DNA of 64,000 bases. Source: Chloroflexota bacterium. GTDB lineage: Bacteria; Chloroflexota; Anaerolineae; 4572-78; J111. Of this stretch, positions 2,646-30,248 are shown piece by piece. How positions within the stretch are numbered: position 1 is the stretch's first letter; each line of letters begins with the position of its first letter. The notes below the pieces were generated by a model that worked only from the letters and a program-made list of their open reading frames with translations, had not been told where the DNA came from and did no database searches. The translations under genes and the position numbers were made by a program. The DNA is taken from NCBI GenBank assembly GCA_016860845.1, contig BOKF01000010.1, forward strand, positions 62,001-126,000, in the 5' to 3' direction.

Positions 2646-3005
2646 TTACCAACTCAAAGTTTGTGCGCCGTTGACCAGGGCTTCGACAGCCGTGGCCGCC
2701 CCGATGATCTCGGCCCCCTCAATCAAATCGGCCTGATTAATGTTGCGGGGCTTGGCGCAAGCGCCGCAGACCCAAACCCGTCCGCCGGCGGCCACAAATT
2801 GCTGAATCAGCTCACTTAAGGGAGCAAACCCATTGGCCTGCAACCCGTCAGTGTAACCTTTGGTGGCCACCCAGACCCCCTCGATCGTCAATAAGACAGT
2901 TGCCTCCTGACTGGAGTTGCGGGCCACGTTGCCCACCAGAAATGCCAGTGAAGCTCTTTCAACATCATCCTTGCCATGCGTATTGTGCAGCATTACTTGG
3001 GCCAT
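2646..3005 (-). CDS. DsrE-like sulfur-relay protein, cysteine form
   Basis: Small (119 aa) DsrE/DsrF-fold protein, a family that binds and passes on persulfide sulfur. Start ATG at 3005 is chosen for its GAGGAGG ribosome site; longer in-frame starts have none. The family motif is intact as VCGAC near residue 90, with a second conserved Cys two residues on. This makes it the in-window cysteine control for the two DsrE paralogues at 25944 and 28044, where the first Cys is a UGA. It is the last gene of a tight minus-strand set OsmC, methyltransferase/TusA, DsrE (26-bp gap). Partner and substrate are not known. Confidence 0.8.
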   Translation of the reverse strand: MAQVMLHNTHGKDDVERASLAFLVGNVARNSSQEATVLLTIEGVWVATKGYTDGLQANGFAPLSELIQQFVAAGGRVWVCGACAKPRNINQADLIEGAEIIGAATAVEALVNGAQTLSW

Positions 3006-3031
3006 ATTATCCTCCTCAAAAAAATTATGGC

Positions 3032-4183
3032 TCAACTCACCCGACGAATGAGATAACGATCCCCTTGTCGGGTCACCAATTCGTGACCGGTTAAGCGACA
3101 CCAGGCCGGTAGATCAACTGCTACGCTGGGATTGGTGGCCCGAACTTCCATGGTTTGACCCGGCAACAGGCTGCGCATTAGCCCCGCGATTTCGTTCAAT
3201 GGGCCATAGGCACAGCCCAGATCACCGGCATCGTAGAAGGCGTCCGCGCCCAAGATTGAGGCGGGTGTTATTGCCGCTGAGACCTCACTCCGCCTTGTGG
3301 GTGGGACTTCGCCCTCACCTACGCTGAGGACTTCGCCCCCACCTACGATGGGGACTTCGCAATTCAGGGCGGCCAGCGCCGTAGTCCATTCGGCCTCATC
3401 ACGGGCTTTACGGGCGCGGAAATTGATGCCCAGGGTACCAAAGTTAGCCGCGCTGCTCGCTTGGGGCGCGCCGCTGAAAACGTCGGCTCGCCAGGTGATC
3501 TCGAAATCTACAAAACCGGCCATGACCACGGCCATGTGCAACTCTGCTTCCAGCAGAGCGCCGGCAATTCAGCCAGTCCACAAGTCTATCTTGCGTTTGG
3601 CGCTCTCCGGTACAGCCTTCTGCACCAGGATGTCGCCAAGCTGCAGGCGACCGCCTGGCCTGAGCACTCGCGCCATTTCACCCAGGGCAGCGGCCTTGTC
3701 CGGCATCAGGTTAAGCACCCCGTTAGAGATGACCACATCGGCCCAGCCGTCAGGCACGGGCAGGGCCTCGGCATAACCCTCGCGGAATTCGACATTGGTC
3801 AACCCGGCTTCGGCAGCGGCACGACGCGCCTTGTTCAACATCGCCGGGGTCATATCCACCCCAATCACCCGGCCGGTTGGGCCGACCATTTTGGCGGCAA
3901 TGAGGCTGTCAATCCCGGCTCCACTGCCCACGTCTACTACCCGCTCGCCGGGTTTTAGTTCTCCCAGGCTAAAGGGGTTGCCGGTGCCGGCGAAGGACTC
4001 GATGGACGTTTCGGGGAGGCCGGCCAGCCATTCATCCGGGTAGCCCAGCAAGCGGGCCAGCGGGCGCCCGGTGTGAAAGTGAAAGCCACGGTCGGGTTCG
4101 AGCGCCACCCATTCATATTCTTCCTGGATCGCGGTGCGCAACGATCCCAGGTCGAGTGTCGGTAGGTAATTTGCTGCAATCAT
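3032..4183 (-). CDS. Candidate selenoprotein: ArsM-like SAM methyltransferase fused to TusA-like domain
   Basis: SAM-dependent methyltransferase (motif I VVDVGSGAGID, then VIGVDMTP) resembling arsenite methyltransferases, followed by a C-terminal TusA-like sulfur-carrier domain (GCAYGPL, then LPGQTMEV and PAWCRLTGHEL). In-frame TGA at 3569-3571 is codon 205; homology resumes immediately as IAGALLEAEL. In ArsM proteins this spot carries a conserved As-binding Cys, so Sec is the likely residue; total 383 aa. By my alignment from memory the other As-binding Cys (SNGVLNL here) is Gly, so the substrate may not be arsenic. A 24-bp tandem repeat (3305-3360) encodes the linker to TusA. Start ATG 4183 sits 3 nt after the OsmC stop, with AAGGA as ribosome site. 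The paralogue at 28590 has the same UGA but no TusA domain. Alternative: two separate genes. Confidence 0.75.
3305..3360 (-). repeat. 24-bp tandem repeat in methyltransferase-TusA linker
   Basis: GACTTCGCC-type units begin at 3305, 3329 and 3353, an exact 24-bp period, giving about 2.3 copies and an 8-residue Gly/Glu/Val/Pro-rich repeat. It sits exactly where the second paralogue (28590) terminates after NCQVPA, so it marks the fusion joint between the methyltransferase and the TusA-like domain. Confidence 0.7.
3541..3559 (-). promoter_or_regulatory. Candidate bacterial SECIS hairpin after UGA 3569
   Basis: On the transcript, nine nt after the UGA, GCUCUGC pairs with GCAGAGU (7 bp with one wobble) around the loop UGGAA. 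The loop starts 17 nt after the UGA and has G at its second position, matching the distance and loop features described for bacterial SECIS elements. The paralogue at 28787-28805 has the identical hairpin at identical spacing. Confidence 0.6.
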
Positions 4184-4186
4184 CGC

Positions 4187-4753
4187 TCAGTCCTTTAGTG
4201 AGACGGTCACGGGAACCGGGTTGCGGATGATGTCCAAAACCGGGGAAGTCTTCTGGACATAATTGCACAGCTCCACCAGCTTCTCCCGGGGCGCATCGCT
4301 CTTCACCCGGTAGGCCAGGTGGATGCTTTCGTAACCCGGGCGCACTGCTTCAGACAGACCCAGGAAGGCGCGCAGGTCCAGATCTCCTTCCAGGTCGAAG
4401 CTCAGGCTCTCGACGTGAATGCCTTGCGCTGCCGCGTTGTAGATAAAGCCGACCGCCAGGCAGGAAGCCAGGGCGTGCAGGACGGCTTCGACGGCATTGG
4501 GACCGGCGTTGTCGCCGAGGAGCACCGGCGGTTCGTCTCCTTCCAGGATAAGGGGTTGGCTGCGGGAGGTATCCTCCTGGCCGGCGCCGTAAAACCCCTG
4601 GATCGTAGTGCGAGAATGGCCGCCCCCGGCCCATTCATTGTGGGCCCGGAACTGGAAGCGGGCCAGCGCCGGATTCTGCTGGATGGCGTTTACGGTCATC
4701 ACCAATTGGTCGACATTAACGCCATTGATCAGGGTTGCGGTTTGGATCGTCAT
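4187..4753 (-). CDS. OsmC/Ohr-family peroxiredoxin-like protein
   Basis: OsmC-fold thiol protein (188 aa), a family that reduces organic hydroperoxides or handles persulfides using two cysteines. Both are present: ASCLAVG near residue 106 and ELCNYV near residue 164. Start ATG 4753 has an AAAGGA site. It heads a three-gene minus-strand operon with the Sec-methyltransferase/TusA gene (3-nt gap) and a DsrE gene, linking it to sulfur or metalloid chemistry. Substrate cannot be read from the sequence. Confidence 0.85.
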   Translation of the reverse strand: MTIQTATLINGVNVDQLVMTVNAIQQNPALARFQFRAHNEWAGGGHSRTTIQGFYGAGQEDTSRSQPLILEGDEPPVLLGDNAGPNAVEAVLHALASCLAVGFIYNAAAQGIHVESLSFDLEGDLDLRAFLGLSEAVRPGYESIHLAYRVKSDAPREKLVELCNYVQKTSPVLDIIRNPVPVTVSLKD

Positions 4754-4934
4754 CGTTTCGTTTCCTTTCTGAATATTGCCAATAAAATTTATCCAGAATA
4801 TAGCATCACCCCCTCACAAAAATCTTATTTCGGCCTTAATTGGGCATGACTTTTTCACTTTTCCGGGCAACAAAAATGCCGGGACATCCGTCCCGGCATG
4901 CAAGGGTCAAAGTTGCCTGCTAGAAGACCAGGGG

Positions 4935-7900
4935 TCAGGTCGCGCCCAGCCGCTCGAAGATCCGCCGGGCTTCCGTCTGCATCGCCTGCGCGGCCGCCAA
5001 GTCGTTTGGCGCGCTGCGGCCAAGCCGGAGCGCAGCGGCGGCGGCCAGGCAGCGGGCGGCTTCATATGCGTTCCCGGCCGCAGTGTATCCGGCCCGGGCT
5101 TCGGCGTAATCGTCCAACGCGACATCGAGCCGGCCCTGGGCTGCCGCCAGCTCTCCGCGCGATTGGCGCGCCATCGCCAGCCACATCCGGCTACCGTACT
5201 GTTCTGCTGCTGCCTCCAGTTGGCGGCAGAAGCGTTCGGCGGCGGCGAAGTCGCCCGCGGCCACCCGCATGCTCACGGCGGCCGGCAGGAGCAAGGCGTC
5301 ACAGGTGGCGCAGTGACCGTGGCGCTGGCTCATCGCCAGGCCCAGGTCCAGAGCCTGGTCGGCGGCAGCGAGGTCGCCTGCGGCAAGGCGATTGCGAGCC
5401 ATAGCGGCATAGAGACGGGCCAGGCAGTGCGCCCGCATGAGGGCCTGCTCGGCCGCCATCACACCCTCTTCCAGTGTCGCCAACCCCTCCGCCAGTTGGC
5501 CGCGGGCCGTCTGGAGCACACCTAGCCGCTGGCAGGCCAGCGCTTCTCCGGAGGCCGCGCCAATCTCGCGGTAAAGCTGGATGGATTCGCGCAGCGCCGC
5601 TTCTGCCACATCCCAGTGGCCGGCCTGAAATTCGAGCGCCCCATTAAAGCACTGGCACAGGGCGATCGCCCGCGGTGCGCTCATCCGCCGCGCTTGCTCG
5701 TGGGTCGTGCTGACGGCCTGTTTCACCTCTTCGTAACCCTTATCACCATACAGGTGATACTCCCACAGTCACAAGTGGACATCAAAGGCTTCGGTCACAT
5801 CGAGGCTCGAGCCGGCCAGGGCGGCGCGCTGCTGCTCAAAGCCGATCCCGGTCCGCCACTCTCCCAGCGAGTGGCAGGCCAGCGCCAGTATCTCGAAGGC
5901 GCGCGCAATCGCCGCCGGATCATTCAGCCGCTCGGCGATGGCCAGGCTAGCCTGCGCCACCTCGAAGGCCTCCTGGTACTCATTGCGATGCCAGTGTAAC
6001 TGGGCCATATTGTAGAGCACGTAGGCATAGTCGGCCGCATTCTTGTGTTCATCCACCTCGGCCAGCGCGGCGGTCAGGTGCGTCTCAGCCGCCGCGGTGT
6101 CTCCAACTGTAATCAAGGCTACCGCGGCGCCACGGTGCAGGCGCGCCCGATCGGAACCTGCTGGCTGCCACCCCTCGCCAGGCGGGAGCGCCAGCGCCTG
6201 TTCGAAGCAGGCCACACTGCGGGGTGTATCGGCCAGGATGATCCGCCACCAGCCGAGCGCCTCCAGGATCATCCAACGGTGGGCAGGATCGGCCAGTTTC
6301 AGCGCATCCATCAGGGTCAACGCCCGCTCAAAGTAGCCGACCGCGCTCTCAAAGGCGTAGACGGCCGACGCTTTCTGTCCGGCCCGCAGCAGATACTCGA
6401 GGGCGCGGTCGCGGCGGTCGCTCAAATCGTAGTGAAAGGCCAGGTCCTCGATGTAGGGGTCAAGTCCCATGAGCTGGCGGGCGTACAGCGCCTCGATCGT
6501 GGCGGCGGCCTGGCCGTGCAGCCGGGCGCGGCGGGCCCGGCTGAGGGCGGTGTAGAGGGCCTGGCGGGTGAGCGGATGCCGGAAGCGATAGCCGTCCGCC
6601 GTCTCCTCCAGCAGGTGAGCGGTGAGCGCGGCGTCGAGGGCATCGAGCAGCGCCCCATCGGGCAGCCCGGCTACGCCGCGCAGCACGTCGAAACGAAACT
6701 CACGCCCAACCACTGCCGCCGCCGTGAGGGCCGCTTCGACGGGTGGCCCCAGGCGGCGCGCCCGCTCGCGCAGCAGTCCGGCCAGATCGGCTGATATGCC
6801 CAGCGTAGCGCCCGGTCGCAGCCGCCACTGCCCGGCCTGGTTTTCCACCTGGTCAGACTTGAACAGGGCGCGGGTCATCTCTTCAATGAAGAAAGGATTG
6901 CCCTCGGTGATCTCGAATACCGCCTTGACCAACTCCGGGGTCACACCGCCGCCGAGGGTATGGGCCATAATGCTGGCGGCGGCGTCCCCAGTCAGCGGGG
7001 CCAGGGGCAGCGTCTCGCTCAGGCGCTCGCGGTAGAGCGCGGTGAGGAGCGCGCTAAGCGGCGTGGCGCTCGTGTCGCCCAGATCGCTGCGGCAGGTGGC
7101 CAGCAGCACCACCGGAGCGGCCCGCGTCTGCCGGGCCAGGTAATGGAAGAGCCGCAGGCTGGCCTCGTCGGCCGCGTGCAGATCATCCACCAGCAGAGCC
7201 ACCGGGTTGCGCAAGGCCAGGCCGGCCAGAAAGACGGCGGTGGCGTTGAACAACGCCCACTGTTCCTGCTGGGGGTCGCTGGAGCCGCGCGGTTTGAAGG
7301 AGGTGATCGGGTTCTCAGCGGGGGGACGCTGGCGTTCGGCCAGGTAGCGATCAAAGGCCTCGATGAAGGGTTGGTAGGCCAGTTGCCCCTCTTGCTCATA
7401 GGCCGCGCCAAAAAGTACCGCCATGCCGCTGCCAACGGCGGCGCACAAGAGTTCACCCGCCAGGAGAGTTTTGCCGATGCCGGCATCGCCGCTAATCAGG
7501 AGGGTCTGGCCCCGCCCCCGCCGGACCGTGTCCAGCCAACCCCGCAGCCTTTCGAATTCAGCCGCGCGTCCGACCAGCACCGGGCTAGGTTCGAGCTTGA
7601 GGGCAGCGGACGGGATGGGGCGGCCGGTTAAACTGCTTGCTCCAGGCCACGCGGTCAGCTCACCGCTGAGGATTTGCCCATACAAAGCCGCCGTTTCCGG
7701 GGCGGGCGGCACATCCAGATCGGCGGCCAGGGCCTCCACACAGGTCTGATATTGGCGCAGCGCCTCGTGACGGCGGCCGGCCAGAGCATAGAGCCGCATC
7801 AGTTCGCGATGAACCGGCTCGTCGGCCGGATCACCACCCAGGGCCAGGAGTGGGGTGAGCAGGGTAATCGCGCCGGTGTAGTCGCGGGCATCACGACAAT

Positions 7901-8426
7901 ACGCCGCCAGCGCCAGGCGGGCTTCGCGCTGGCGACGGTAGAGCGCCTCACGCGGGAGCAAGGTCCACTCGGCGTACCGGTCGTCGGGCAGCAGGTCGCC
8001 CTCGTAAATATCCAATGCCTGTTCAAGATTGGCTTGACGCTGCTCAGGAGGTACGGTCGGCGTTGTGGCGCACAGCCGCTCGAACTCCTGGACATCTACC
8101 CAGACCGACGGGGCAAGGCTCAAAACGCCATCTTCAAAGCTAAAGACCGCGTCGGCCGCGCCCTGACCAAGAGCCGTGTTAAGGGTTTGGCGCAAAACGT
8201 GGAGGGTGCTGTACAGGTTATTTGCCCCGGAAGCGAGGTTGGCGTCCGACCAGAGAAACTCAATCGCCTGTTCTTTCAACAGACGCCGCTCCATGGCCAG
8301 GCGTTGGAGGAGGGCGGCGGCCTTGCGGCGCGGCCACTCGGCGGCGCTTAAGGTGCGTTCTCCCCAAGCGACCTGGAAACGCCCCAACAGGTAGATGCGG
8401 ACAGAGGGCGAAGTTAAAGCTGGCAT
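4935..8426 (-). CDS. Candidate selenoprotein regulator: winged-helix/BTAD, AAA ATPase, TPR array with in-frame UGA
   Basis: Large transcriptional regulator of the SARP/AfsR-like type. Order: N-terminal winged-helix DNA-binding part and BTAD TPR domain (about 10-255), an ATPase module with Walker A GDAGIGKT near residue 315 and LLVDD as Walker B, then a long TPR region rich in Ala/Arg/Leu helices. An in-frame TGA at 5769-5771 is codon 886; the reading continues as LWEYHLYGDKGYEEV and another 277 residues of clear TPR repeats, total 1163 aa. Both halves lack anything that looks like a natural end or start at the junction. The hairpin at 5741-5759 fits a SECIS. ATG 8426 is preferred over GTG 8438 because AAAGGTG is correctly spaced. 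Stands alone between the OsmC operon and a rhodanese gene. Alternative: nonsense-mutated or split gene. Confidence 0.7.
5741..5759 (-). promoter_or_regulatory. Candidate bacterial SECIS hairpin after UGA 5769
   Basis: The mRNA has a perfect 7-bp stem UAUCACC/GGUGAUA with loop UGUAU. It begins 10 nt after the UGA and its loop starts at nt 17, with GU in the loop. This is one of the cleanest of the seven hairpins and lies wholly inside the coding region. Confidence 0.65.
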
Positions 8427-8773
8427 CGTTTGCTGCACCTTTATGAACTGGTCTCCTTTTCCCCATTTGCAGGGATAACTCGGTGAAGCTGGCCAGGCTT
8501 GGCGATTCTAAGTGACGGCGTCAAACCCAAAAAGAAAGTCGCCTTTTCACCCTGCAATTATAGTAATTTGTATCGTTCTCGTTTTCATTTTACTTCGGAT
8601 TGGCTGTGTTTTCAAGACCACCCCCCCACATTCTGAGCTGCGTCGATAGTGCAGGTGGCGAGCGCGCTCGAAAAAATCGAGCGCGCTCCGTCCCACCTAC
8701 TCTGATGGCAAGTAAACTGGAATAATTGTAAAGCTCTATTATTCACACTTCACTTTCTAGTTACGACCCAAAT
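8427..8773. other. Intergenic region with a strong palindrome
   Basis: No gene recognised. It holds the upstream region of the minus-strand BTAD regulator and, at 8653-8698, a long inverted repeat annotated separately. The rest is AT-rich with no motif I can name. Confidence 0.4.
8653..8698. repeat. Inverted repeat, possible terminator of the rhodanese gene
   Basis: GAGCGCGCTCGA (8660-8671) pairs perfectly with 8677-8688 around an A5 loop, and AGGTGG/CCACCT at 8653-8658 and 8693-8698 extend the stem. It lies 75 bp past the end of the minus-strand rhodanese gene. No U-run follows, so termination is only a possibility. Confidence 0.5.
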
Positions 8774-9631
8774 CTACCGTTCAATCGGCGCGCCGATGAG
8801 GCTGCCCCACTCGGTCCAGGAGCCATCATAGTTACGCACGTTGGGGTAGCCCAGCAAGTAACTCAGCACAAACCAGGTATGCGACGAGCGCTCGCCGATG
8901 CGACAGTAGGCGATGATTTCCTTGTCGGCAGAAATACCCTGGCCCTCGTATAGCGCTTTCAAATCGACCAGGGTCTTGAAAGTTCCATCTTCCAAAACCG
9001 CCTTGCTCCAGGGAATATTGGCCGCGCCGGGGATATGCCCACCACGCTGCGCGCCTTCCTGGGGCAGGTTAACTGGGGCCAGCAATTTGCCGGAGAACTC
9101 GTCGGGGGAGCGCACATCCACCAAGGCACGCCCGGTATGATGTAAACTGGCCTCGACAAAACTGCGTAAAGCTCTCAGGTTTGTATTGTGGGGTTGGGCC
9201 TGATAGCTGGTGGGATAATGGGCGGGTGCGAAAGTGGTCAGTGGCCGTCCTTCGGCCAACCACTTCTTGCGACCCCCATTGAGCAGGCGCACATCCTGGT
9301 GACCGTACAGTTTGAGCAGCCAGAAGGCATAGGTGGCAAACCAGTTATCCAGGTCGCCATACAGCACCACGGTAGTCTCATTGGCAATACCGGCCTGGCT
9401 CATCAAGGCTTCGAAATCGGCCTGGTCAGGAATGTCGCGGCGCAGCGTAGCCTGGGTATCCTTTTTCCAGCTCCAGCCGATGGCGCCGGGAATGTGCCCG
9501 GAGCCGTAGGCTTCGGTATCAACGCTGACTTCCACCAGGCGCACGTTGGCGTCATCCAGATGTTCCGCCAGCCAATCGGTGGTGACTAACACCTCGTCGA
9601 AAACGTAATCATTTTTTCCATTGGTCCTCAT
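8774..9631 (-). CDS. Two-domain thiosulfate/3-mercaptopyruvate sulfurtransferase (rhodanese)
   Basis: Tandem rhodanese protein (285 aa) moving sulfane sulfur to a thiol acceptor. The N-terminal non-catalytic domain (LVEVSVDTEAYGSGHIPGA) is followed by a catalytic domain with VDVRSPDEFSG, GGHIPGAANIPW and the active-site loop YCRIGERSS. That loop (C-R-x-G-x-R-S) resembles thiosulfate:cyanide sulfurtransferases of the SseA/CysA group. The active Cys is a normal UGC. Length is typical of the family. Ends TAG at 8774. Context is one of several sulfur-transfer genes in the island. Confidence 0.9.
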   Translation of the reverse strand: MRTNGKNDYVFDEVLVTTDWLAEHLDDANVRLVEVSVDTEAYGSGHIPGAIGWSWKKDTQATLRRDIPDQADFEALMSQAGIANETTVVLYGDLDNWFATYAFWLLKLYGHQDVRLLNGGRKKWLAEGRPLTTFAPAHYPTSYQAQPHNTNLRALRSFVEASLHHTGRALVDVRSPDEFSGKLLAPVNLPQEGAQRGGHIPGAANIPWSKAVLEDGTFKTLVDLKALYEGQGISADKEIIAYCRIGERSSHTWFVLSYLLGYPNVRNYDGSWTEWGSLIGAPIER

Positions 9632-9763: not shown

Positions 9764-10543
9764 TTAAACTCGGCTCAGTCTTCCCACCCGAACTTGGCGC
9801 CGCAAGACCACCTGGGCCACACCACCTGTTCCAAGAACCAGTTCGTTCACCTTTCTTACGACCTTGTCATCAATCATGAGCTGGCTCAAAGGCTCGTCCC
9901 ACCATTGGCGGAGAGCGTCGAAGCTGTCGGCATAAACTAAATAATCGAAGACGCGCTCGGCCACGGGCCAAAATAAACCAGCTTTGACTACCTGATCCAG
10001 AGCTGCTTTTGCTTGTTTGAACATCTCAAAATCGTCGGTACGATCCATCGGTTCGGCGTGCTTGACCTCGCCCTGATGATGAACCTCTAATGAAAAAGGT
10101 TCGCCGGTGAAATGGCTTTCCATTAGCACACCCCCTGACTTGAGCAAGCGATGCGCTTTCTCCAGGGCATGACCCATGCCCTTAACGGCGATTCAACAGA
10201 GACTCCGCGTGAAGATAACAACATCAAAGCCTGGAACGCCTGGCGCGACGGCAAAATCCTCGATGCCACTCACTCGAAACTCAACCCGCTCGCTTAATTC
10301 AGCCGGTCTCTGCTTGATGGCGTTGGCGATGGCTTCCTGGTTGGGATCAAGTGCCATGGTGGACGCGGCCTGAGCAGCGTATTGCCACGTCACCCGGCCG
10401 TCGCCGCAACCAATCTCTAATACATGTCTGCCGGTGAAGTCCATTAGCTCGTGGAGTACGGTAGTTTCGGTTGTATCGGGGTCAGCCGTTATGGTCTTGA
10501 TTTCTCCAGTCCCAGTGACAAGTTGCATCTCTTTAAACGCCAT
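9764..10543 (-). CDS. Candidate selenoprotein: UbiE-like SAM methyltransferase with in-frame UGA
   Basis: Class I SAM methyltransferase: motif I VLEIGCGDGRV, acidic MALDPNQEAI, then GFDVVIFTRSLC, and after the UGA a continuation IAVKGMGHALEKAHRLLKSGGVLM, which is the normal post-motif helix and strand of the fold. TGA at 10193-10195 is codon 117, directly after a Cys, giving a Cys-Sec pair; total 259 aa. Neither half could fold alone because the break falls inside the Rossmann core. Start ATG 10543 has GGAGGGG, which lies in the tail of the DUF2917 gene 2 bp upstream. It is the last gene of the operon ParB-like, DUF2917, methyltransferase. The hairpin at 10165-10181 has a GGU loop. Substrate unknown. 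Confidence 0.75.
10165..10181 (-). promoter_or_regulatory. Candidate bacterial SECIS hairpin after UGA 10193
   Basis: Transcript stem GGGCAUG/CAUGCCC (7 perfect bp) with loop GGU, stem starting 12 nt and loop starting 19 nt after the UGA. A GGU-containing apical loop at this distance is the textbook arrangement of the E. coli fdhF SECIS, making this the strongest of the seven candidates. Confidence 0.7.
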
Positions 10544-10544
10544 A

Positions 10545-16345: not shown

Positions 16346-16349
16346 CGTC

Positions 16350-19608: not shown

Positions 19609-19786
19609 CACTTTTGCTGCTGATATGGCTGAGTCAGGAAATCCTGACGCGGCCTTTATAGATTGAAATGACCGATAGGTAAAAAAGTGAAAATTAAAAG
19701 TTACACGAATTGAGGAAGAATTAGGTTTACATGCAATATATTCGGCCTTAAACGCCTACACCCAGTATCTTCTGCGGGTGTGGTCG

Positions 19787-22700
19787 TCAGTCCAGGACTG
19801 CCAGGGCTGCCCGAACCCGAGCGGCATCCGGCGCTGCTTTCATTTCCTCAAACGCTGCCAGCGCACGGGAAAAGTAGTCGCGGGCGGTGGTGGTCTCGGC
19901 GCGCGCCGCCGCCAGTGTACCCAACTCAGACAGCGTCCGCCCGATTTGCCAGCGGGTATCCAAATCCTGGAACAATGCCAGGGCTTGATGCAAACGCACG
20001 TTGGCCTGGTCATGCTCACCTGCCAGCCGGTGGGCCACGCCCCAGGCGCGATGGGCGATGGCCTGGTACAACCCATGGCCACACTGCGCGGCTGTTTTTT
20101 CAGCCAGGGGCGCGTACTGACGTAGGGCCGCCAGGTCACGCTGCTGGGCAGCAACGTCGGCAAGCATCGCGTACAGGTCATTGTCAACGGCAGGGGTGAC
20201 GTAGGTCGGCGAGATATCGAGCTTGATCAGCGCCTCTTCCAGATGTTGTCTGACCAGGGCGAACTCGCCCTCCGCCGCCAGGGGCTGGCACAGTCAATAA
20301 TGGTGGCTACGTCTCCAGCGCTCCGGCGGCCCACTGATGCCGGCCATTATGGTATACGATTCTTCTCGCAGTAACTTAGCCTGGTCGAACTGGCCGCGCA
20401 GGGCATGCACTGTTGCGCTGAGTCCAATGGCAAAACAGGTCGCCCCCAGCCGTTCGAGCGAATAGAGTTGTTGAAGCGTGCGCCGCCTCTCTTCTATTTT
20501 GAACATCTCGTCCCAGCGATCCAGGCGGAACAAGCCCTGGTGCAAGGCCGACAGGGCCCGGGCCTGCTCATCCACAGCCCGAATCTGGTCGGCCAGGCCC
20601 TCTGCTTCCAGGAGATGGGGGACAGCGTGGGCGTATTCGCCGGCATGAATCAGGGCGCTGCCGGTCCCAATCAGGATATTAATCCGCTCCCGTATGTCGT
20701 CGAAGCGCGGGTCGTGGCTCAGAGCCAACGCTCGCAGGGCTACCTCCACCCGCTCACGCAGCAAGCCACCCGCGCCATAGATGCTGGAAAGGGTGATGAG
20801 CGCCGACGACAATTCAATCGGCGCATCCAGGTGTTCGGCAGCCACAACCGCCGCTTGGGCATATTGCACTGCTTCATCCCACTTGGCCGGGAAGCGGGTG
20901 ATTAAGGCATCAGCCGCCAGCGTCTTGAGCAGGCGTACCATTTCTGGATGCGGCGGTTCGTCCTCCATAGATCGTAAGAGGGCGTCAATTTTTATCCGCA
21001 GGGCGGTGCTGACCTGAGAAGCAAACTCAAATTGCTGAAAATCGGCGTTCCCCCACATACCTGCCGTCGTTTGAAAGATCTTGCGATGCAAACGCACAGC
21101 CATGATTTTGTCGGCCTGCCTCAAGCTGGACCACAGGTCAAGGGCAGCCTGGTAGGTTGAAATCGCGTCAACGCCCTGCCGTAGCAAGCGATAATTGTCG
21201 GCCAATGCTTCCAGAAGCGTCAGGCGCAGCTCAGACTGTTCTCCACTTTCAAGCAGGTCGAGGGCAGTGCGCAGATGTTGGACCGCCTCTTCGTAGGCAT
21301 ACAGCATCTCAGCCCGTTGCGCTGCCCGCCGGGAGTATTCAATCGCCGTGCCCGGTTCACCGGCAGCGATGAAGTGATAAGCCAGCGCTTCAAAGTCGTC
21401 TGGATGAAGGGCCTGGATCGCTTCAGCCAGGCGCCGGTGAAAGTATGTCCGCCGGGGAGGAGTCAGATCGGCGTAGATCGCCTCCTGCACCAAATGGTGG
21501 GCGAAAGTGAAATCACCTCTATCTTCACCTTCGCGGATAAACCCGCGCGCCAGCAACTCTTCCAAGGCGCCCAGGGCCAATTCGTCAGCCCAACCTTCGG
21601 CGTGTCGCACCAGTTCATACTCAAAAACCCGCCCGGCCACCGCCGCTACCCGCAGAAATGTCCGGGCCATTTCCGTCAATCGCTCCAGGCGCGCCCTGAT
21701 CGTTTCGCGCAGCGATTCGGGTAGCAGCACTACCGCACCCGGCGCGGCCTCGACAAAGGCCCCAATCCAGCGCCCGCCACTGGCAAAGATTTGCCCGGCT
21801 TCAATCAACCCCCTGACGATTTCTTCCAGGAAAAAAGGATTGCCCATCGTCTCAACAAACAACCGGTCTGCTACCTGAACAGCCAGTGGCTCTGCCAGGC
21901 CCGACAGGTGGGCAACCCATTCTCGGTTGGTCTCCTGCGACAGCGGTTTGAGCGAGATCGTTGAAACCGTACCTTCGTGGGTGAAGCGCCGTCCCAGCCG
22001 GGCCAGAGCACGTTCAGCGCCCACCTCGTCCGTCCGGTAGGTAATCACCACCAGTAGGCGGCTGGCGCTTAGGCGGGGCGCGATGTAGGTTAACCAATCC
22101 AGGGTGGACTCCGCAGCCCAATGCACATCTTCGAAGAGGAGCAACAGCGGCCGGCTGCGGGCCAGGACCAGGAAGGCTTGCAGCAGGGCCTCAAATAGTT
22201 GCGCCCGCAAGTCATCCGGTGAAATTATTGCCTCTTCGACCAGGCGGTCAGCCACGCCGAGTACATCCGGTACCAGGCGAGCCAGCGTCACCCGGTACAC
22301 TGCCGGCAGGGTGGCGTTCCGCAGCAGGTTCGCCGCCGAGCGTAACATCTCGACCATGGCTTGATAGGGCAGCGCCCGCTCGAACTCGTAAGAGTGACCC
22401 ACCAGCGCCAGGCCACCCTGTTGGATCGCATCGTCGGCCAGGCTGAGGGTCAGATGGCTCTTGCCCACCCCGGCCTCGCCACCGACGATAGCTAAACGAC
22501 CACGGCCAGAGACGGCCTCTGTCCACAGCCGGCTCAATCTATCCATTTCGACCTCTCGCCCAAAGAGTTTGGGCAGGCCTGGCAGATGGGATGGCGCTGG
22601 AGTCGCCATTTCCCTTTCAGCGGCCGGCAGGGGCAATCCTCGCACGATGGCCGTCCACAGGGCTTCGGTTTCGGCCATAGGTTCGACCCCCAACTCATCG

Positions 22701-23353
22701 CGCAGCAAGGTGCATAGACGCTCATATTCGGCCAGGGCCGCAGCCCGATCACCGGCCTCATACCGGAGGGCGATGAGATCGCGGTAAACGGCCTCGGCCA
22801 GGGGCTCCAGATCAAGCGCCCGGTGGATGAGGTTCAGCATCGTATCAACTTCACCTATGGCCCGGTGGTGGGCCACAAGCTGGCGCAGGCTGTTGAGTTG
22901 GATTTGGCGCAGGCGTTCGCGCTCGGCCAAGAGCCATTCATCGTCAAAGCCCGCCAGCAAATCACCCGTGTAGAACGAGATAGCCTCATGGAGCGCAGCA
23001 GGGTCGGCCTGTTTAACCAAGTGCTCATAAGCTTCGATATCGAGCCAGTAAGGTGCGTCGAGGTTCCAGCGCAACTGATCGTGGACCTCAACGATCCATT
23101 CATCCCCCGGACATTCGGGCAAGGTGGTGCGCAGCTCACTCAGGGCACGCCGCAACGTGCCTAAAGCCTCTTTCTCAGGACTGTCAAGCCATAATTTGAA
23201 GGCTATTTCTTGACGAGACAGGGGCGTGTGGCGATGCAACAGCAGGTAAGCCAACAGGCGTCGGGCGCGCGGCCGGAAAAGCAGCATCGTGGAGGTCGCC
23301 CCGGCTGTCACATGGAGTTGGCCCAGCAGCTTTAATTTCAAGGTCACGACCAT
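19787..23353 (-). CDS. Candidate selenoprotein regulator 2: winged-helix/BTAD, AAA ATPase, TPR with in-frame UGA
   Basis: Second giant SARP-type regulator, 1188 aa. N-terminal DNA-binding and BTAD region (LLGQLHVTAG; YTGDLLAGFDDEWLL; ALAEYERLCTLLRDELGVEP), ATPase with Walker A GGEAGVGKSHL near residue 295 and LLLLFEDVHWA as Walker B, then TPRs. TGA at 20294-20296 is codon 1020; the frame continues as LCQPLAAEGEFALVRQHL and another TPR stretch to 19787 (168 residues after Sec). In both BTAD regulators of the window the UGA is followed by Leu and lies in the TPR region. ATG 23353 has AGGAGG. A nonsense TGG-to-TGA change cannot be excluded here because the Cys identity in homologues is not verifiable by me. 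Confidence 0.6.
20256..20271 (-). promoter_or_regulatory. Candidate SECIS hairpin after UGA 20294
   Basis: Transcript stem AGGGCG/CGCCCU (6 bp) with loop AGUU starting 29 nt after the UGA, inside the accepted bacterial range. A second hairpin UGCCAG/CUGGCG with loop CCC lies nearer, but its loop lacks G. This is a weaker case than the others. Confidence 0.4.
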
Positions 23354-23511: not shown

Positions 23512-24804
23512 TCACCGTTTGGGCAACGTCTCGTACATCACCCCGGCGACGATCACGCCCGAAAGAAAGGTTAGCCCACCGATGGCGGCGATAGCGATTG
23601 GGATGCCGAACGCGTCGGCCAGCAGTCCGGCCATCAAGGCGCCGACCGCATAGCCGCCATCCCGCCACAGGCGATAGACACCCACCGCCGAGGCCCGCCA
23701 TTCGGGATGAGCGACATCGGAGATAGCAGCTAACAGGGTAGGGTAGACCAGAGCCGTACCCAGCCCCAGCAGAACCGCCCCGGCAAACCAGGCCCAGAAA
23801 GCATAACCTATGACAAACAGCGCGATGCCGATAGCCTGCACCCACATTCCTACGGCGATCAGCCACTTGCGCCCCCAGCGGTCACTGAGCGCGCCGGTCA
23901 CGAGTTGGCCCAGTCCCCAAACAGCTGGATAGATGGCAGCAATGATGCCTACCTGTTCCAGCGGCAGCCCGGCTCCGGCTAAAAAGATGGGAACTAACCC
24001 CCAAACCAGACCATCGTTGAGGTTATTGACCAGCCCGGCCTGACTGGCCGCAAAGAGCGCCCGGTCTTTCCAACTGGTCAAAAGTAGGATCTGGGCAAAG
24101 GATAAATCGGCTCCTTTAGTTCCTTGCTTAACCGAGGAGCTAAGGGGATTTGTAGGAACTGAGGGAACTTGAGACAACTTAGCTTCGTGCCGGGCGTGAG
24201 CATGAGTCTCACGGACAAAAAAGATGGAAAGGACCAATCCTAGCAGAGCAAAAGCGATGCCGGGGTAAAAGGGGACGGGACGCAGGCCGTAGGCCGCCGC
24301 CAGGTAGCCGGTCATGAGCGCCGACAGGGAGACGGCCACGTAACCGGCAGATTCATTGAGACCCATCGCCAGACCGCGCTGCTTGGGACCGACTAAATCT
24401 ATCTTCATAATCACGGTCGTAGACCAGCATAGGCCTTGATTGATGCCCAACAGCACATTGGCAAAGACCACCCAACCCCAACTGGGCGCAAAAATGATCA
24501 GGAACGGCACCGGCAATCCGGCCAGCCAGCCGGCAATTAAGATGCGCTTGCGTCCCACCCGGTCGGACAACCGCCCGGCGAACAGATTAGCCAGGGCTTT
24601 AACTACTCCAAAGCTAACCAGGAAGGAGAGTGTGACCGACTTGGCAACCAGGCCAAAATCGGCCTCGGCGATGAGGGGTAAGACGCTTCGCTCCAGGCCG
24701 ACCATCGCCCCGACAAAAGCATTGACAATGACTAATAAGCTGAACTGTTCCCAATTGGCCCGCAGGCCCAGGCGGACAGAGGTTAGGGTTGTTGACGTCA
24801 TCAT
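23512..24804 (-). CDS. MFS transporter
   Basis: 430-aa major facilitator with about twelve hydrophobic segments and the signature GRLSDRVGRKRIL between helices 2 and 3 and its repeat GALSDRWGRKWLI in the second half. Begins 9 nt after the rhodanese-MBL gene stop, so the two, plus the Sec-DsrE gene, form one minus-strand operon. Drug/metabolite exporter type; in this context a sulfur, selenium or metalloid compound is possible but unproven. Confidence 0.85.
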   Translation of the reverse strand: MMTSTTLTSVRLGLRANWEQFSLLVIVNAFVGAMVGLERSVLPLIAEADFGLVAKSVTLSFLVSFGVVKALANLFAGRLSDRVGRKRILIAGWLAGLPVPFLIIFAPSWGWVVFANVLLGINQGLCWSTTVIMKIDLVGPKQRGLAMGLNESAGYVAVSLSALMTGYLAAAYGLRPVPFYPGIAFALLGLVLSIFFVRETHAHARHEAKLSQVPSVPTNPLSSSVKQGTKGADLSFAQILLLTSWKDRALFAASQAGLVNNLNDGLVWGLVPIFLAGAGLPLEQVGIIAAIYPAVWGLGQLVTGALSDRWGRKWLIAVGMWVQAIGIALFVIGYAFWAWFAGAVLLGLGTALVYPTLLAAISDVAHPEWRASAVGVYRLWRDGGYAVGALMAGLLADAFGIPIAIAAIGGLTFLSGVIVAGVMYETLPKR

Positions 24805-24813: not shown

Positions 24814-25923
24814 TCAAGCCACCGCGCAGCGATTTGCGCCGGCTTCCAGATCGGTTGGGTCGCCCTCGAAGGTCGCTCCACTTTCATTCAAGGTCACAAT
24901 GCGGTGATGATTCGGCGGTGTCGGGGGGATGCGCGCCAGCAATGACTCGACAAAAGCAGCTTCAGGGACAGACAATAGTTCAACCCGCTGCTGCACCTCG
25001 GTCAATGGCGCAGTAACCGGCTGACCATCAAAGGCAATCGGTTCGCTGGTATGGCCGGGCAAAATAAGGGTTTCGGGGGAAAGGGTCAGCAGTCGTTGGA
25101 GGGAGCGGTACAGCAAGGACGCTCGCTGCCGCGCTTCAATAGGACTGGCTTCCAGGTCAGGCCGGCCCACCCCGGCCAAAAAGAGAGTATCCCCGCTGAA
25201 GAGAGCCTGGTCATCGAGCAAGTAACACGTACTTTCCAGGGTGTGACCCGGCGTGTGCAGCACCACCAAGTGGGCCGTCCCAATAGTGAGCACATCACCG
25301 TCACGAAGGGGGCTAAACAAAAAGGTCGCCCGCTCCTGGTCTGGCAGATACAACGTTGCGCCGCTTTGCTCGGCCAGCCGGCGGGCACGGGAGAGGTGGT
25401 CGGCGTGGATGTGCGTGTCCAAAACAGTCGTGATATTCCAGCCGTAACGCTGGGCCAGGTCCAGATAAATCTCCGGTTCGAGGGCTGCGTCAATCACGGC
25501 AGCGCTATCCTGGGAACCAATCAAATAGGACAGGCAGCCCTTGCCGGTTCGGCGTACTTGAATAACCTGAGCCTGACTCCCCGGTACAGGCACTTCAGCG
25601 TTGTTCCAGGCCAGGCTCCAGGCTTTCATTCCTCCCGCCAGGGAAAGCGCCGCAAAGCCACGGGCGCGAAGCTGTTCGGCGGCAGTGAGGCTGGTTACAC
25701 CCGCACCGCAGATGGCCACAACCGGCCGGTCAGCGGGCAGGTTCACTCCGGCCAGCGCGTTGGGATCATTGGCTTTCAGGGCATCGTAGGCTGGTATGTG
25801 TAAACTGCCTGGAATAGCCCATTCGGCCCGATCTTCCGCCCGGCGAACGTCCAGTACGGTCACTGGCTGTTGCTGTTCCAATAATTCACGCAAAGTCTCG
25901 ACGTCAATAGTGGTCTGTGTCAT
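24814..25923 (-). CDS. Rhodanese-metallo-beta-lactamase fusion, persulfide dioxygenase-like
   Basis: 369-aa protein with an N-terminal rhodanese domain (VLDVRRAEDRAEW, active loop ICGAGVTS) and a C-terminal metallo-beta-lactamase domain with the THIHADHLS metal box, HTPGHTLEST, SGDTLFLAGVGRPDL and LPGHT. This architecture is known for ETHE1-type persulfide dioxygenases and related hydrolases that oxidise glutathione or protein persulfide. Here the rhodanese precedes the MBL domain. Start ATG 25923, 20 bp after the Sec-DsrE gene. Together with DsrE and the MFS gene it suggests a sulfane-sulfur (or selane) detoxification operon. Confidence 0.85.
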   Translation of the reverse strand: MTQTTIDVETLRELLEQQQPVTVLDVRRAEDRAEWAIPGSLHIPAYDALKANDPNALAGVNLPADRPVVAICGAGVTSLTAAEQLRARGFAALSLAGGMKAWSLAWNNAEVPVPGSQAQVIQVRRTGKGCLSYLIGSQDSAAVIDAALEPEIYLDLAQRYGWNITTVLDTHIHADHLSRARRLAEQSGATLYLPDQERATFLFSPLRDGDVLTIGTAHLVVLHTPGHTLESTCYLLDDQALFSGDTLFLAGVGRPDLEASPIEARQRASLLYRSLQRLLTLSPETLILPGHTSEPIAFDGQPVTAPLTEVQQRVELLSVPEAAFVESLLARIPPTPPNHHRIVTLNESGATFEGDPTDLEAGANRCAVA

Positions 25924-25943
25924 AGGTTCCCCCTTGATGATAC

Positions 25944-26309
25944 TTAGAAAACGATAACTTGATCGGCAGCCAGGGTCCATTCGCCCAGCAAATCCATGCT
26001 GCCCAACAGCACACCCTCTAGCAAATCCTCCGGCTCGAACCCGCGAGCCTCGCGACAGCTCCCTCAGAGGGCCACCTCGCCTCGCTGGGCCAGCGATTTC
26101 AACATCCGTTCAATATTGTAAAACCCATTCGGTGTCTTTTGTCCCCTTTTGGCGCAAACGACCCCATCGCCGGTCAGAAAGACATGTACCGCCGTTTCTG
26201 GCCGCTTGACCAGATTCAGGGCCAGGCGCAGAGCATTGTAAGCCCGTTCGCTGCCATATGGCCCGTCGTTAATAATGAATAAAATGTTGCGGGGACTTGT
26301 GGTTGCCAT
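25944..26309 (-). CDS. Candidate selenoprotein: DsrE-like protein with UGSC motif
   Basis: 121-aa DsrE-fold protein. N-terminal strand NILFIINDGPYGSERAYNALRLA and FLTGDGVVCAKR lead to VAL, then TGA (26064-26066, codon 82), then GSCREARGFEPEDLL, SMDLLGEWTLAADQVIVF and a TAA stop. The family has CGxC here and the Cys-only paralogue in this window reads VCGAC, so the UGA replaces the first Cys, giving UGSC. The part after the UGA contains the conserved ARG and W..AD..I.F tail, so without readthrough the protein lacks a third of its fold. Start ATG 26309 after AAAGGAGACG. Heads the operon with the rhodanese-MBL and MFS genes. Confidence 0.8.
26042..26054 (-). promoter_or_regulatory. Candidate SECIS hairpin after UGA 26064
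   Basis: Transcript stem CGCGA/UCGCG (5 bp, plus a flanking wobble) with loop GGC, loop beginning 15 nt after the UGA. Short, but GC-rich and with G at the first loop positions. Confidence 0.45.
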
Positions 26310-26431
26310 AGAGGTTTCTTCGTCTCCTTTATCTTGGATGGTTTATGGTTATGGTTGCAGCTCAAGAGACTGGCGAGGGTTTGACACCCACCGACTTCTT
26401 TCCCCCATTCAAGCTTCCCCCTATACACCAA

Positions 26432-27073: not shown

Positions 27074-27120
27074 ATACTCCCGTTTTATCTGATAAAGCTC
27101 AACTGGCCCGAATGTTAGTC

Positions 27121-27930: not shown

Positions 27931-28043
27931 TGTTTCTCCTTTCTTACAGCTTCTCTAATATTTGGCGAGAAGACAACATCGCTCCTTGAAAAATGGCTGG
28001 CCTGGGAGTGCGCGTGACCAGCCATATTCATTATCCTCTTCGG

Positions 28044-28406
28044 TTAAAAGCTAACCACCCGATCTGCGGCTACCGTCAACTCCGCCCCGACTTTCGGGTT
28101 AATAAAGCGGGCATTTTTGCCCTGCAAATCTGCATCAGTGACCCCACGGGCCGCGCTGCAGCCCCCTCAGACATGGATGGAGACGCCCTGGGCGACGGCT
28201 TTGGCCATCAGCTCTTTCAAGGGTGGCCAGCCCACCCCGTGTACCGCCTCGGCCACAGCGTCTTTCATCAAATAGGTCGCCTCACCCATCAACGCGATCT
28301 GAGCTTGATGCCCGGCTTCCACCGCCCCCAAAGCTCCCAAAAAGGGGAGCGTGGCCCGGGTTGGGTCGTCAGACCCGGACGTTCCGAAATAAAGAATGGT
28401 CGCCAT
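28044..28406 (-). CDS. Candidate selenoprotein: DsrE-like protein with UGGC motif
   Basis: 120-aa DsrE-family protein. ILYFGTSGSDDPTRATLPFLGAL and IALMGEATYLM lead to VSIHV, then TGA (28167-28169, codon 80), then GGCSAARGVTDADL and a tail VAADRVVSF ending TAA. The UGA aligns with the first Cys of VCGAC in the 2646 paralogue and with the UGA of the 25944 paralogue. ATG 28406 has a GGGGG ribosome site; longer in-frame starts are not needed. A TTGAATA/TATTCAA operator lies 34-55 bp upstream. Next upstream on this strand is the Sec-methyltransferase at 28590. Confidence 0.8.
28140..28152 (-). promoter_or_regulatory. Candidate SECIS hairpin after UGA 28167
   Basis: Transcript stem GGCCC/GGGUC (5 bp, one wobble) with loop GUG beginning 20 nt after the UGA. 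A stronger 7-bp stem GGGCUGC/GCGGCCC with loop AGC sits closer (loop at nt 10), nearer than usual for SECIS; the two are mutually exclusive. Confidence 0.35.
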
Positions 28407-28439
28407 ACAGTTACTTTGCCCCCTTGCTTTGAATATTTG

Positions 28440-28461
28440 ATTGAATACAGTCTTATTCAAT
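28440..28461. promoter_or_regulatory. ArsR-type operator upstream of Sec-DsrE gene
   Basis: Perfect inverted repeat ATTGAATA-N6-TATTCAAT, with an additional TTTGAATA half-site at 28429-28436. It shares the TTGAATA/TATTCAA half-sites with the region upstream of the ArsR-rhodanese gene (30273-30294), the dyad type recognised by ArsR/SmtB repressors. Likely controls the DsrE gene starting at 28406. Confidence 0.65.
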
Positions 28462-28589
28462 TGTCAGAATTGTTACTGCCGGACCACCCCCCTTCTTCTA
28501 ACCCCCAGACTTTAGTCGTGCGGTCGGGAATACCCAAATGGTGAGTAGGTTGTGGGATCAAAAATATCAGCCGGGCTGGCTCCTTATCG

Positions 28590-29459
28590 TCAGGCTGGAA
28601 CCTGGCAATTCAGGACAGCCAGCGCCCTGGCCCATTCAACCTCATCACGTGGCTTGCGAGCACGGAAATTGATCCCCAGCGTGCCAAACTCGGCAGCGCT
28701 TGAGGATTGGGGCGCACCGCTAAATACATCAGCTCGCCAGGTGATCTCGAACTCCACAAAACCGGCCATCACGACGGCCATCTCTAACTCTGCTTCCAGC
28801 AGAGCACCGGCAATTCAGCCGGTCCACAACGAGATATCACTTTTTGCGTCTTCTGGCACGACGGTTTGGACCAAAATATCCCCGATTTGCAGGCGGCCAG
28901 TCGGCTTCCCTAACCCAGGGTTAGGACTGCGTAGCACACGGGCCATTTCGCTCAGCGCAGCCGCTTTGTCCGGCATCAAGTTGAGAACGCCATTGGAGAT
29001 GAGTACGTCCGCCCAGCTATCCGGCACTGGCAGGGCCTCAGCATATCCCTGGCGGAACTCAATATTGGTCAAGCCAGTCTCAACCGCTGCACGGCGAGCC
29101 TTGTCGAGCATTGCCGGGGTCATATCCACTCCAATCACCTGACCGGCCGGCCCAACCATTTTCGCTGCGATGAGGCTATCAATCCCCGCCCCACAGCCCA
29201 CATCCACCACCCGCTCTCCTGGACGGATTTGGCCCAGACTAAAGGGGTTACCGGTGCCGGCAAAAGACTCGATAGATGTTTCCGGGATACCGGCCAGCCA
29301 TTCGTCGGGATAGCCCAGCAGGTGCGCTAGGGGCCGACCGGTATGAAAATGAAAGCCCTGCTCCGGTTTCAGGGCGACCGCTGTGTATTCTTCGCTAATA
29401 GCGACGCGCAGCTCGGTCAAATCCAAACCCAACGCCTCAACCAAGGTATTATTCATCAT
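28590..29459 (-). CDS. Candidate selenoprotein: ArsM-like SAM methyltransferase, short paralogue
   Basis: 289-aa paralogue of the 3032 gene: EQGFHFHTGRPLAHLLGYP, motif I VVDVGCGAGIDSLI, VISNGVLNLMPDK, then SLWTG, TGA at 28815-28817 (codon 215), then IAGALLEAELEMAVVMAGFVEFEI and a stop after NCQVPA. Both the UGA and the following hairpin are identical to the first copy although the two genes differ at many synonymous positions, which argues that the UGA is maintained by selection. This copy lacks the TusA-like extension and its linker repeat. Start ATG 29459 follows a run of G. Contains an insertion SPNPGLGKPT before the strand GRLQIGD. Confidence 0.75.
28787..28805 (-). promoter_or_regulatory. 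Candidate bacterial SECIS hairpin after UGA 28815
   Basis: Same CUCUGC-UGGAA-GCAGAG hairpin as in the 3032 gene, nine nt after the UGA with the loop at nt 17. Conservation between diverged paralogues supports function, although it also encodes the conserved ALLEAEL residues. Confidence 0.6.
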
Positions 29460-29576
29460 TTCCCCCCTTCATCGAGTAACTTCCTCGACAAAAACAGCCC
29501 AGTCAATAAAATGCTTGCTTAACCAATTGGAATCAGCCCATAGGCCAGCATCCTTTTACATAGGTGAGCAAACTAG

Positions 29577-30248
29577 CTATGCTGCCAACTTATAACCCGC
29601 CTCTCGCCACTCGGCAATACCCTCTTCCAGCCGCGCCACTTGCCAGCCTCGCTCGGCCAACAAACCCAATGCATCGTCGGCGTAGACACAGTAGGGGCCG
29701 CGGCAGTAAGCAACAATAAGTTTGTTGGGCGGAAGTTCATGCAAGCGGCGTTCCAATTCGTCAATAGGAATAGAAATTGCCTCCGGCAAGTGTCCGGCCT
29801 CATACTCTGCTGCGGGGCGCACATCGAGCAAGACCACTTCACCGTGGCGCAACCAGCTTCGCAGCTCCTCGGAGGAAATACCCTCAAATTCGTGGCGGCG
29901 ATGGCGGTAGGCGTCGAGGGTGCGTTCCACCTCGGCCAACTGCTGCTCGGCCACAGCTCGCAATTCCAGCCACAAACGGGCTACCGCTGGATCGGCCAGC
30001 CGGTAACGGATATACAAACCCTCTCGTTCGTTCAGCACCAACTTGGCTTGCTTGAGCCGCTGTAGATGTTGGGAGGTGTTGGCCACACTCATATGAGCTT
30101 CCTGGGCCAGTTCCTCCACCGTACGGGGGGCCTGAACAAGCAAATCCAACAGTTCCAGGCGGTGAGGATTCGACATCGCTGTGGCTACCTGGCTAAACAG
30201 CTGATAGAGTCGTTCTTTGTGTCGCCGCTTGTCAGTTGAGGTTGTCAT
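29577..30248 (-). CDS. ArsR-family repressor fused to rhodanese domain
   Basis: 223-aa regulator. Residues 1-100 are an ArsR winged helix (MSNPHRLELLDLLVQAPRTVEELA, NTSQHLQRLKQAKLV); residues 125-223 are a rhodanese domain with VVLLDVRPAAEYEAGHLPEA and the loop YCRGPYC. The only cysteines are in the rhodanese loop, so persulfide or electrophile sensing probably occurs there rather than in the HTH part, unlike SqrR/BigR. It should bind the TATTCAA-N8-TTGAATA dyad just upstream (autoregulation) and the matching site before the Sec-DsrE gene. Ends TAG. Confidence 0.85.
   Translation of the reverse strand: MTTSTDKRRHKERLYQLFSQVATAMSNPHRLELLDLLVQAPRTVEELAQEAHMSVANTSQHLQRLKQAKLVLNEREGLYIRYRLADPAVARLWLELRAVAEQQLAEVERTLDAYRHRRHEFEGISSEELRSWLRHGEVVLLDVRPAAEYEAGHLPEAISIPIDELERRLHELPPNKLIVAYCRGPYCVYADDALGLLAERGWQVARLEEGIAEWREAGYKLAA

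Follow-up and report, generated by a model that had tools for sequence, protein, structure and literature searches.

What do seven in-frame UGA codons signify in a gene island of a Chloroflexota bacterium, and what do the interrupted genes encode? The window analysed here is a 64 kb stretch (positions 62,001 to 126,000 of contig BOKF01000010.1, assembly GCA_016860845.1; G+C content 57%). Read through the UGA, the joined proteins are, according to domain scans, two ArsM-like methyltransferases, two DsrE proteins, one further methyltransferase and two regulators (regulators 1 and 2) in which BTAD, nucleotide-binding AAA_16 and TPR domains follow one another in that order. The sequence evidence indicates that all seven UGAs are likely decoded as selenocysteine (Sec), a reading based on the exchange of cysteine (Cys) and UGA at conserved sites, site-conserved UGA, frozen synonymous codons, and SelB and tRNA-Sec in relatives. 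Five of the genes are of known or near-known kinds, and the novel part is the pair of AfsR-type (large SARP) regulators, which likely form two new families of selenocysteine-containing activators. Our overall explanation, to which we assign a probability of roughly 0.75, is that the UGAs are Sec-decoded, that the regulators are two new families and that the first switches on the adjacent OsmC-ArsM operon via a direct-repeat box.

A sequence-only reading of the window had proposed that seven minus-strand genes each continue past a single TGA. All seven codons were located (Table 1), and the frame is open on either side of each until the next stop. The interrupting codon is never TAA or TAG (0 of 7 sites, a chance of (1/3)^7 or ∼5 × 10−4 if the three stops were equally likely), and TGA, said to be a normal stop elsewhere, indeed ends many window genes, twice as a double TGA. 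Homology was also found to resume past the TGA: the two DsrE genes and the methyltransferase at 9.8–10.6 kb have Pfam domains that span the UGA, and in the first ArsM-like gene a TusA domain sits 3′ of it. Alignment of the joined proteins to homologues placed Cys or UGA at the site for regulator 1, ArsM, the DsrE protein with the UGA at 26064 and the methyltransferase with the UGA at 10193.

The UGA of regulator 1 lies in the TPR domain within the motif FDxHL[U/C]LWEYHLYG, in which the site holds either UGA or Cys. There are 202 homologues at E≤1e-3 among 7,993 scored candidates; among the 120 listed, 52 have Cys in FDxHLC[L/V]WEY, 68 end exactly at ..HL, and none is otherwise. A codon-blind DNA pattern, in which NNN replaced the UGA, recovered 12 loci across the genome collection, 11 with TGA and one with TGC, and over all 21 regulator 1 loci the codon is TGA in 16 (the window and 15 genomes) and TGC or TGT in five. 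Overall, UGA is retained in other genomes at six of the seven sites, and a Cys homologue exists for the seventh. Pseudogenes or sequencing errors with TGA arising by chance would be in keeping with broken copies in relatives (a TAA in the OsmC gene of locus L063, frame breaks in genomes G003 and G001), but hardly with this recurrence of the same UGA, the Cys homologue or the frozen codons described below, and we regard the chance of this as negligible.

A hairpin resembling a selenocysteine insertion sequence (SECIS) follows the UGA at all seven sites. The sequence-only reading had predicted such hairpins, although not their spacing, in that the loop was expected about 15–29 nucleotides (nt) downstream and the measured loop centres lie 21–32.5 nt after the T. 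By a scoring rule that wants a G early in the loop, the seven hairpins are stronger than those at 150 sampled Cys codons (Mann–Whitney p=5e-4), at 200 codons drawn at random (p=4e-4) and at 16 TGAs that end genes in the ordinary way (p=0.012); plain folding of 48 nt gave modest z-scores of −0.04 to −2.23. The strongest SECIS sign in these sequences is the freezing of synonymous codons. Codons +1 to +9 of regulator 1 have a synonymous identity of 0.795 (12 sequences) versus a mean of 0.416 (standard deviation, 0.064) in 394 other windows, and the codons after the ArsM UGA one of 0.897 (8 sequences) versus 0.406 (standard deviation, 0.068) in 174 windows. The regulator 1 stem, TATCACCTGTAYGGTGAY, is common to the sixteen UGA loci, as far as ∼37% protein identity, and at locus L078 its DNA is unchanged though the peptide differs (W to G). 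Among three Cys loci with the same peptide, the stem is broken in G004 and G622 and intact in the Cys paralogue of G003 (L066:9618-13400), where TGT replaces TGA within intact hairpin DNA. This paralogue, whose genome also has a UGA form, is likely a fossil of a recent Sec-to-Cys change.

The Sec machinery was surveyed in the 15 relatives with a UGA regulator 1. SelB scores above cut-off in all 15, and ARAGORN confirmed a tRNA-Sec in 13. Genome G003 combines UGA and Cys forms of regulator 1 with both SelB and tRNA-Sec. Of the genomes with the Cys form only, G004 is without SelB and tRNA-Sec, G552 and G579 have both, and G622 has SelB with no tRNA-Sec at E≤1e-8. The idea that the Cys form accompanies loss of Sec decoding arose from G004, the only Cys genome among the initial 12, and such a link is not claimed here because the later Cys genomes G622, G552 and G579 encode SelB. 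Organism-wide reassignment of UGA to another amino acid would likewise place UGAs in frame; however, UGA is the ordinary stop of many window genes, close homologues have Cys rather than Trp or Gly, and the relatives encode SelB and tRNA-Sec, and this possibility carries almost no weight. Sec decoding is hardly in doubt for regulator 1, the ArsM-like proteins and the DsrE proteins, very probable for regulator 2, and only slightly less so for the methyltransferase at 10193.

Regulator 1 exceeds the cut-off for each of its domains, with 64.4 bits for BTAD (cut-off 22.1 bits), 83.6 for AAA_16 and 48.6 for TPR_MalT; its domain scan gave no match to Trans_reg_C, the OmpR-type winged helix. Both regulators match NCBIfam models, AfsR included, far below cut-off. 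Regulator 1 was present in 3 of 298, 1 of 240 and 8 of 400 genomes in samples that include centre genomes already known; in the same kind of sample regulator 2 was present in 2 of 400, with just 30% identity for one of them. The two are a rare accessory trait, since few sampled genomes carry them.

The gene neighbourhood points to the operon that regulator 1 may control. OsmC, a UGA ArsM or both adjoin regulator 1 in 13 of 15 informative UGA loci (upstream in G001, downstream in the rest), and the UGA ArsM is next to it in 12; a further locus, in G597, is uninformative as the contig stops at the regulator gene. The gap before OsmC contains a box with repeats spaced 11 bp. Passages of PMC10936776 give the SARP rule as direct repeats spaced by 11 or 22 bp, of which the last lies 8 bp from the −10, and the box fits this spacing. 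Scanning with a weight matrix built on eight sites chosen by eye added four sites, at L054, L057 (G003), L059 and the Cys locus L076. In scans that left out each locus in turn (the window and G003 together), the box is the best site of the whole locus at 12 of 21 loci (11 UGA, 1 Cys; scores 10.6 to 37.8), and a −10-like TANNNT hexamer begins 8 nt past it in all 12. At L056 the best match is a low-scoring stretch within the gene, at L075 it is weak (rank 2), and the same scans found no box at the expected place in L064, L077, L078, L066, L004, L079 and L080. Genome-wide, the box consensus with up to three mismatches occurs in 9 of 17 genomes, one site each, against 0 of 17 for the reversed control; seven of the nine sites adjoin regulator 1, as built into the pattern. 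An extra site in G005 has no clear gene. The G012 site (L087:6647-7189) is on a separate contig, upstream of a gene whose G009 orthologue (92.5%) comes after regulator 1 and the box, an arrangement that looks like action in trans. Because the box heads the OsmC-ArsM operon in the window, the prediction is that regulator 1 switches on an arsenic operon that depends on selenium, and it probably does so through the box.

At other loci the box stands before different genes. In G009 (L059:7954-9935) and G012 it heads a membrane protein gene, not OsmC-ArsM, and G009 adds two further proteins, which we take to be DUF2182- and DUF1326-like. In G622, a Cys genome, the genes headed by the box are TusA-like and DsrE-like; there the TusA-like stretch (69%) and DsrE stand separately after regulator 1, versus the ArsM-TusA fusion of the window.

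Regulator 2 also exceeds the cut-offs for BTAD (76.3 bits) and AAA_16 (78.2 bits), with TPR_12 just under and the N-terminal winged helix Trans_reg_C at 25.4 versus a cut-off of 26.2. Among its 18 listed homologues, the 13 close ones (44–99% identity) all end at the UGA and the other five match weakly; the relative in G005 has TGA at the site. A comparison of two downstream regions for a regulator 2 promoter revealed no common stretch longer than 7 bases. In the gap between regulator 2 and the LuxR-type gene (window 19612-19786), AATTCTT and AATTCGT repeats lie 11 apart, 8 nt from TAATTT. When the sequences upstream of 12 island genes were scanned, this pair was the sole match; it serves as a lead only to a possible target site of regulator 2.

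Several observations weigh against the overall explanation. The SelB and tRNA-Sec support comes from relatives and not from the window's own genome, and no tRNA-Sec was found in two of those relatives, G001 and G005, where weak matches (48–50 bits) turned out to be Ser and Leu tRNAs. The UGA copy of regulator 1 in G003 breaks off 146 codons past the UGA and that in G001 shifts frame upstream; both breaks are perhaps assembly errors. No compensatory changes were found in the regulator 1 SECIS stem, which hardly varies. For regulator 2, no Cys form was found among the listed homologues and the relatives, and the site in the distant G622 relative (30%) shows Ile next to a gap. The UGA regulator 1 of G009 and G012 is without a neighbouring OsmC or ArsM. 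Finally, 9 of 21 loci have a weak box or none, the L061 site has a low score (10.6), and for eight of the twelve sites the original choice was made by eye at that same place.

The sensor domain of regulator 1 suggests a role for the residue itself. An alignment of 12 Sec and 53 Cys sequences (alignment numbering is protein numbering + 23) shows little or no variation in three elements, namely H-x-[U/C]-x-W, an HC pair and, within the post-UGA HGxCxTC, its CxxC. Structure prediction for this domain, over 388 residues and with 39 sequences, gives a TPR superhelix with a mean confidence score (pLDDT) of 89 and a minimum of 59–73 around the Sec helix. Foldseek returned mainly TPR proteins, LGN first, with MalT domain III (1hz4) tenth at TM scores of 0.57/0.61. 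We propose that in resting regulator 1 the TPR domain would keep the ATPase off, as the MalT sensor domain does, and that the selenol with conserved Cys and His residues of the TPR domain may bind or react with a soft ligand. ATP-driven release would then free the SARP domains to pair on the repeats and to bring in RNA polymerase. In the absence of Sec, the protein would end at residue 889 with 277 sensor residues lost, and since the operon encodes a UGA methyltransferase, the same UGA would make the switch depend on selenium supply as well. Both the autoinhibition and the selenium gate are put forward as predictions, and Sec as the sensing residue is somewhat favoured.

A selenium gate alone, making the full-length activator selenium-dependent through a residue that senses nothing, would draw on the cost of truncation and on the UGA methyltransferase that the neighbouring operon encodes in 12 of the 15 informative UGA loci. 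Against it, 52 of the 120 listed homologues (202 in total) hold Cys exactly at the site with no gate, and the motif is conserved across the 53 Cys and 12 Sec sequences. Cys kept without a gate in a conserved motif implies that the side chain matters, and a gate without sensing is improbable. As to what regulator 1 senses, arsenite or a methylated arsenical would be the most likely ligand, though arsenic can be named only tentatively. That the regulators instead sense reactive sulfur or selenium (persulfide, selenide), with ArsM as just one output, is less likely than arsenic but likelier than a gate alone; it is consistent with the TusA-like and DsrE-like genes headed by the box in G622, with the other genes that the box precedes in G009 and G012 and with the wealth of OsmC, DsrE and rhodanese genes in the island, and it sits poorly with the UGA ArsM beside regulator 1 in 12 of those 15 loci. 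The fullest form of our proposal, that these STAND/SARP activators are the first selenocysteine-based signal sensors, in which a TPR selenol senses and the UGA doubles as a selenium gate for an arsenic/sulfur operon, we hold at slightly less than even odds.

The remaining five UGA genes probably encode enzymes that handle sulfur or arsenic. The two ArsM-like proteins score 226.8 and 208.1 bits against NF008823 (arsenite methyltransferase), below its cut-off of 263, and are therefore named ArsM-like; their UGA aligns to a conserved Cys in the solved ArsM 5evj (ECLAGAL). The two window copies have TGA, as do ten copies from nine relatives (L053, L054, L057, L058, L061–L064, L075 and L077). A second ArsM type has TGA at AFAG-U-LGGA (L055:1066-1605 and L060:6893-7360), with a conserved TCTC-GGA-GAGA hairpin 3′ in the DNA. 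The OsmC gene beside regulator 1 in G006 (L063:18099-18662) was considered as an extra selenoprotein and rejected, as its stop is TAA and others have Ser, indicating a nonsense change or assembly error. Both UGA DsrE proteins fit PF02635 (cut-off 22.7 bits) with a UxxC motif (UGSC or UGGC). The UGA at 26064 aligns to a Cys of YchN (1jx7) and is TGA in G011 and in G003, where the copy is split by a frame break; at 28167, G011 has TGA and a paralogue has Cys. For the methyltransferase at 10193, 14 of 29 homologues were aligned: the site is Cys in P0140 (39%, the sole close full-length homologue) and His in 11 distant ones, and P0139 is missing the site region yet is 87% identical to the post-UGA stretch. 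Another homologue, P0141, ends in SWSL, one residue short of the site, as if a UGA took the place of the neighbouring Cys of SLCC.

Domain scans found the rhodanese, OsmC, DsrE and methyltransferase families that had been said to cluster here. Neighbours of the UGA genes include OsmC, a third DsrE protein that has Cys, four proteins with rhodanese domains (one ArsR-fused), one MFS and one EamA transporter, and a metalloid or chalcogen role for the island would be read off these genes. In G011 the rhodanese/metallo-beta-lactamase fusion (L054:11602-12717) has TGA at the rhodanese active-site Cys (VTV-U-GAG), which is Cys in the window and G003. Elsewhere, the window contains a partial group II intron (676-1906; a reverse transcriptase/maturase open reading frame and an RF00029 match at 1814-1906), a molybdopterin enzyme cluster of the DMSO reductase II/ethylbenzene dehydrogenase type with Fe-S, chaperone-like and EB_dh subunits (32172-40041), and benzoyl-CoA reductase-like genes (two HGD-D, two BadF/BcrA ATPases) with enoyl-CoA hydratase and electron transfer flavoproteins (49888-59719).

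Table 1. Features of the island in window coordinates; UGAs are cited in the text by their lowest coordinate.
Feature	Position	Strand	Details
Regulator 1, BTAD-AAA_16-TPR (large SARP)	4938..8438	-	1167 aa; UGA = residue 890
Regulator 1 in-frame UGA	5769..5771	-	FDVHL-U-LWEYHLYG
Candidate SARP-type promoter element upstream of OsmC	4797..4840	-	box 4811-4840; -10-like TATATT 4797-4802 (hand-counted)
Regulator 2, BTAD-AAA_16-TPR	19790..23353	-	1188 aa; UGA 20294-20296, residue 1020, SHHY-U
DsrE with Cys	2649..3101	-	CGAC; PF02635
ArsM-like methyltransferase-TusA fusion	3035..4183	-	UGA 3569-3571, WTG-U-IAG
OsmC-like protein, no UGA	4190..4753	-	PF02566 66.5 bits; OsmC_like_Se 48.5 bits, below cut-off 95
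Two-domain rhodanese	8777..9631	-	PF00581
Methyltransferase	9767..10573	-	UGA 10193-10195, RSLC-U-IAV
Single-domain rhodanese	16353..16709	-	domain scan
LuxR-type NTPase/TPR regulator without UGA	16981..19611	-	domain scan
MFS transporter	23515..24804	-	domain scan
Rhodanese/metallo-beta-lactamase fusion	24817..25980	-	domain scan
DsrE	25947..26309	-	UGA 26064-26066, VAL-U-GSC; PF02635 75.3 bits
DsrE	28047..28460	-	UGA 28167-28169, IHV-U-GGC; PF02635 43.2 bits
Second ArsM-like methyltransferase	28593..29459	-	UGA 28815-28817, WTG-U-IAG; 82% identical to first
ArsR-rhodanese fusion	29580..30248	-	domain scan
SECIS-like hairpin, ArsM-TusA	3538..3561	-	after UGA 3569
SECIS-like hairpin, regulator 1	5741..5759	-	UAUCACC-UGUAU-GGUGAUA; frozen in 16 UGA loci
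SECIS-like hairpin, methyltransferase	10164..10182	-	after UGA 10193
SECIS-like hairpin, regulator 2	20252..20276	-	after UGA 20294; stem AGGGCG..CGCCCU, one C-to-T change in G005
SECIS-like hairpin, DsrE	26026..26055	-	after UGA 26064
SECIS-like hairpin, DsrE	28131..28160	-	after UGA 28167
SECIS-like hairpin, second ArsM	28787..28805	-	after UGA 28815

If the proposal is true, a transcription activator whose sensor domain contains Sec would mean that selenium chemistry serves signalling, and a selenium-dependent arsenic/sulfur operon would be made only with its poison present and selenium available. It raises the questions of why Sec is retained where Cys also works, for which sister proteins, even in one genome (G003), provide natural Sec and Cys forms, and of whether UGA decoding gates the regulon by selenium supply. 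Current gene callers truncate the regulators at the UGA (68 of the 120 listed homologues), hiding the second half of the sensor.

The view that the island is a new Sec-dependent system holds in part: the two regulators are new, one with a promoter box, but arsenite methyltransferase, DsrE, OsmC and rhodanese selenoproteins are families already listed in tables and passages of PMC13188914 and PMC9312934. Table 1 of the 2026 review PMC13188914 has 119 selenoprotein families, most of them enzymes, carriers or proteins of unknown role; SARP/AAA/TPR regulators are absent from those families and from passages of PMC9312934. A full-text literature search, by titles and abstract openings and with subscription papers and preprints outside its reach, found no Sec-containing transcription regulator of this kind. 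The sole entry termed regulatory in the review tables, FmdB with Sec (TIGR02605, motif UxxU), is not a SARP/AAA/TPR protein. The PF02635 UGSC and UGGC proteins of the window resemble the DsrE-like selenoprotein (UxxC) with no difference of note. The ArsM-like proteins share the ArsM fold and UIAG at the conserved Cys with the Sec arsenite methyltransferase (UxxG), from which the first copy differs in being TusA-fused and both in scoring under the NF008823 cut-off. MalT, a STAND activator that has a LuxR DNA-binding domain and binds maltotriose, resembles the regulators in its TPR sensor fold but, unlike them, has no Sec. A likeness in domain order exists to AfsR of Streptomyces, which has BTAD, nucleotide-binding and TPR domains in the same order and, according to passages of PMC10936776, target promoter repeats spaced by 11 bp and set 8 bp ahead of the −10; regulator 1 differs from AfsR by the Sec or Cys in its conserved TPR motif and by its OsmC and ArsM neighbours.

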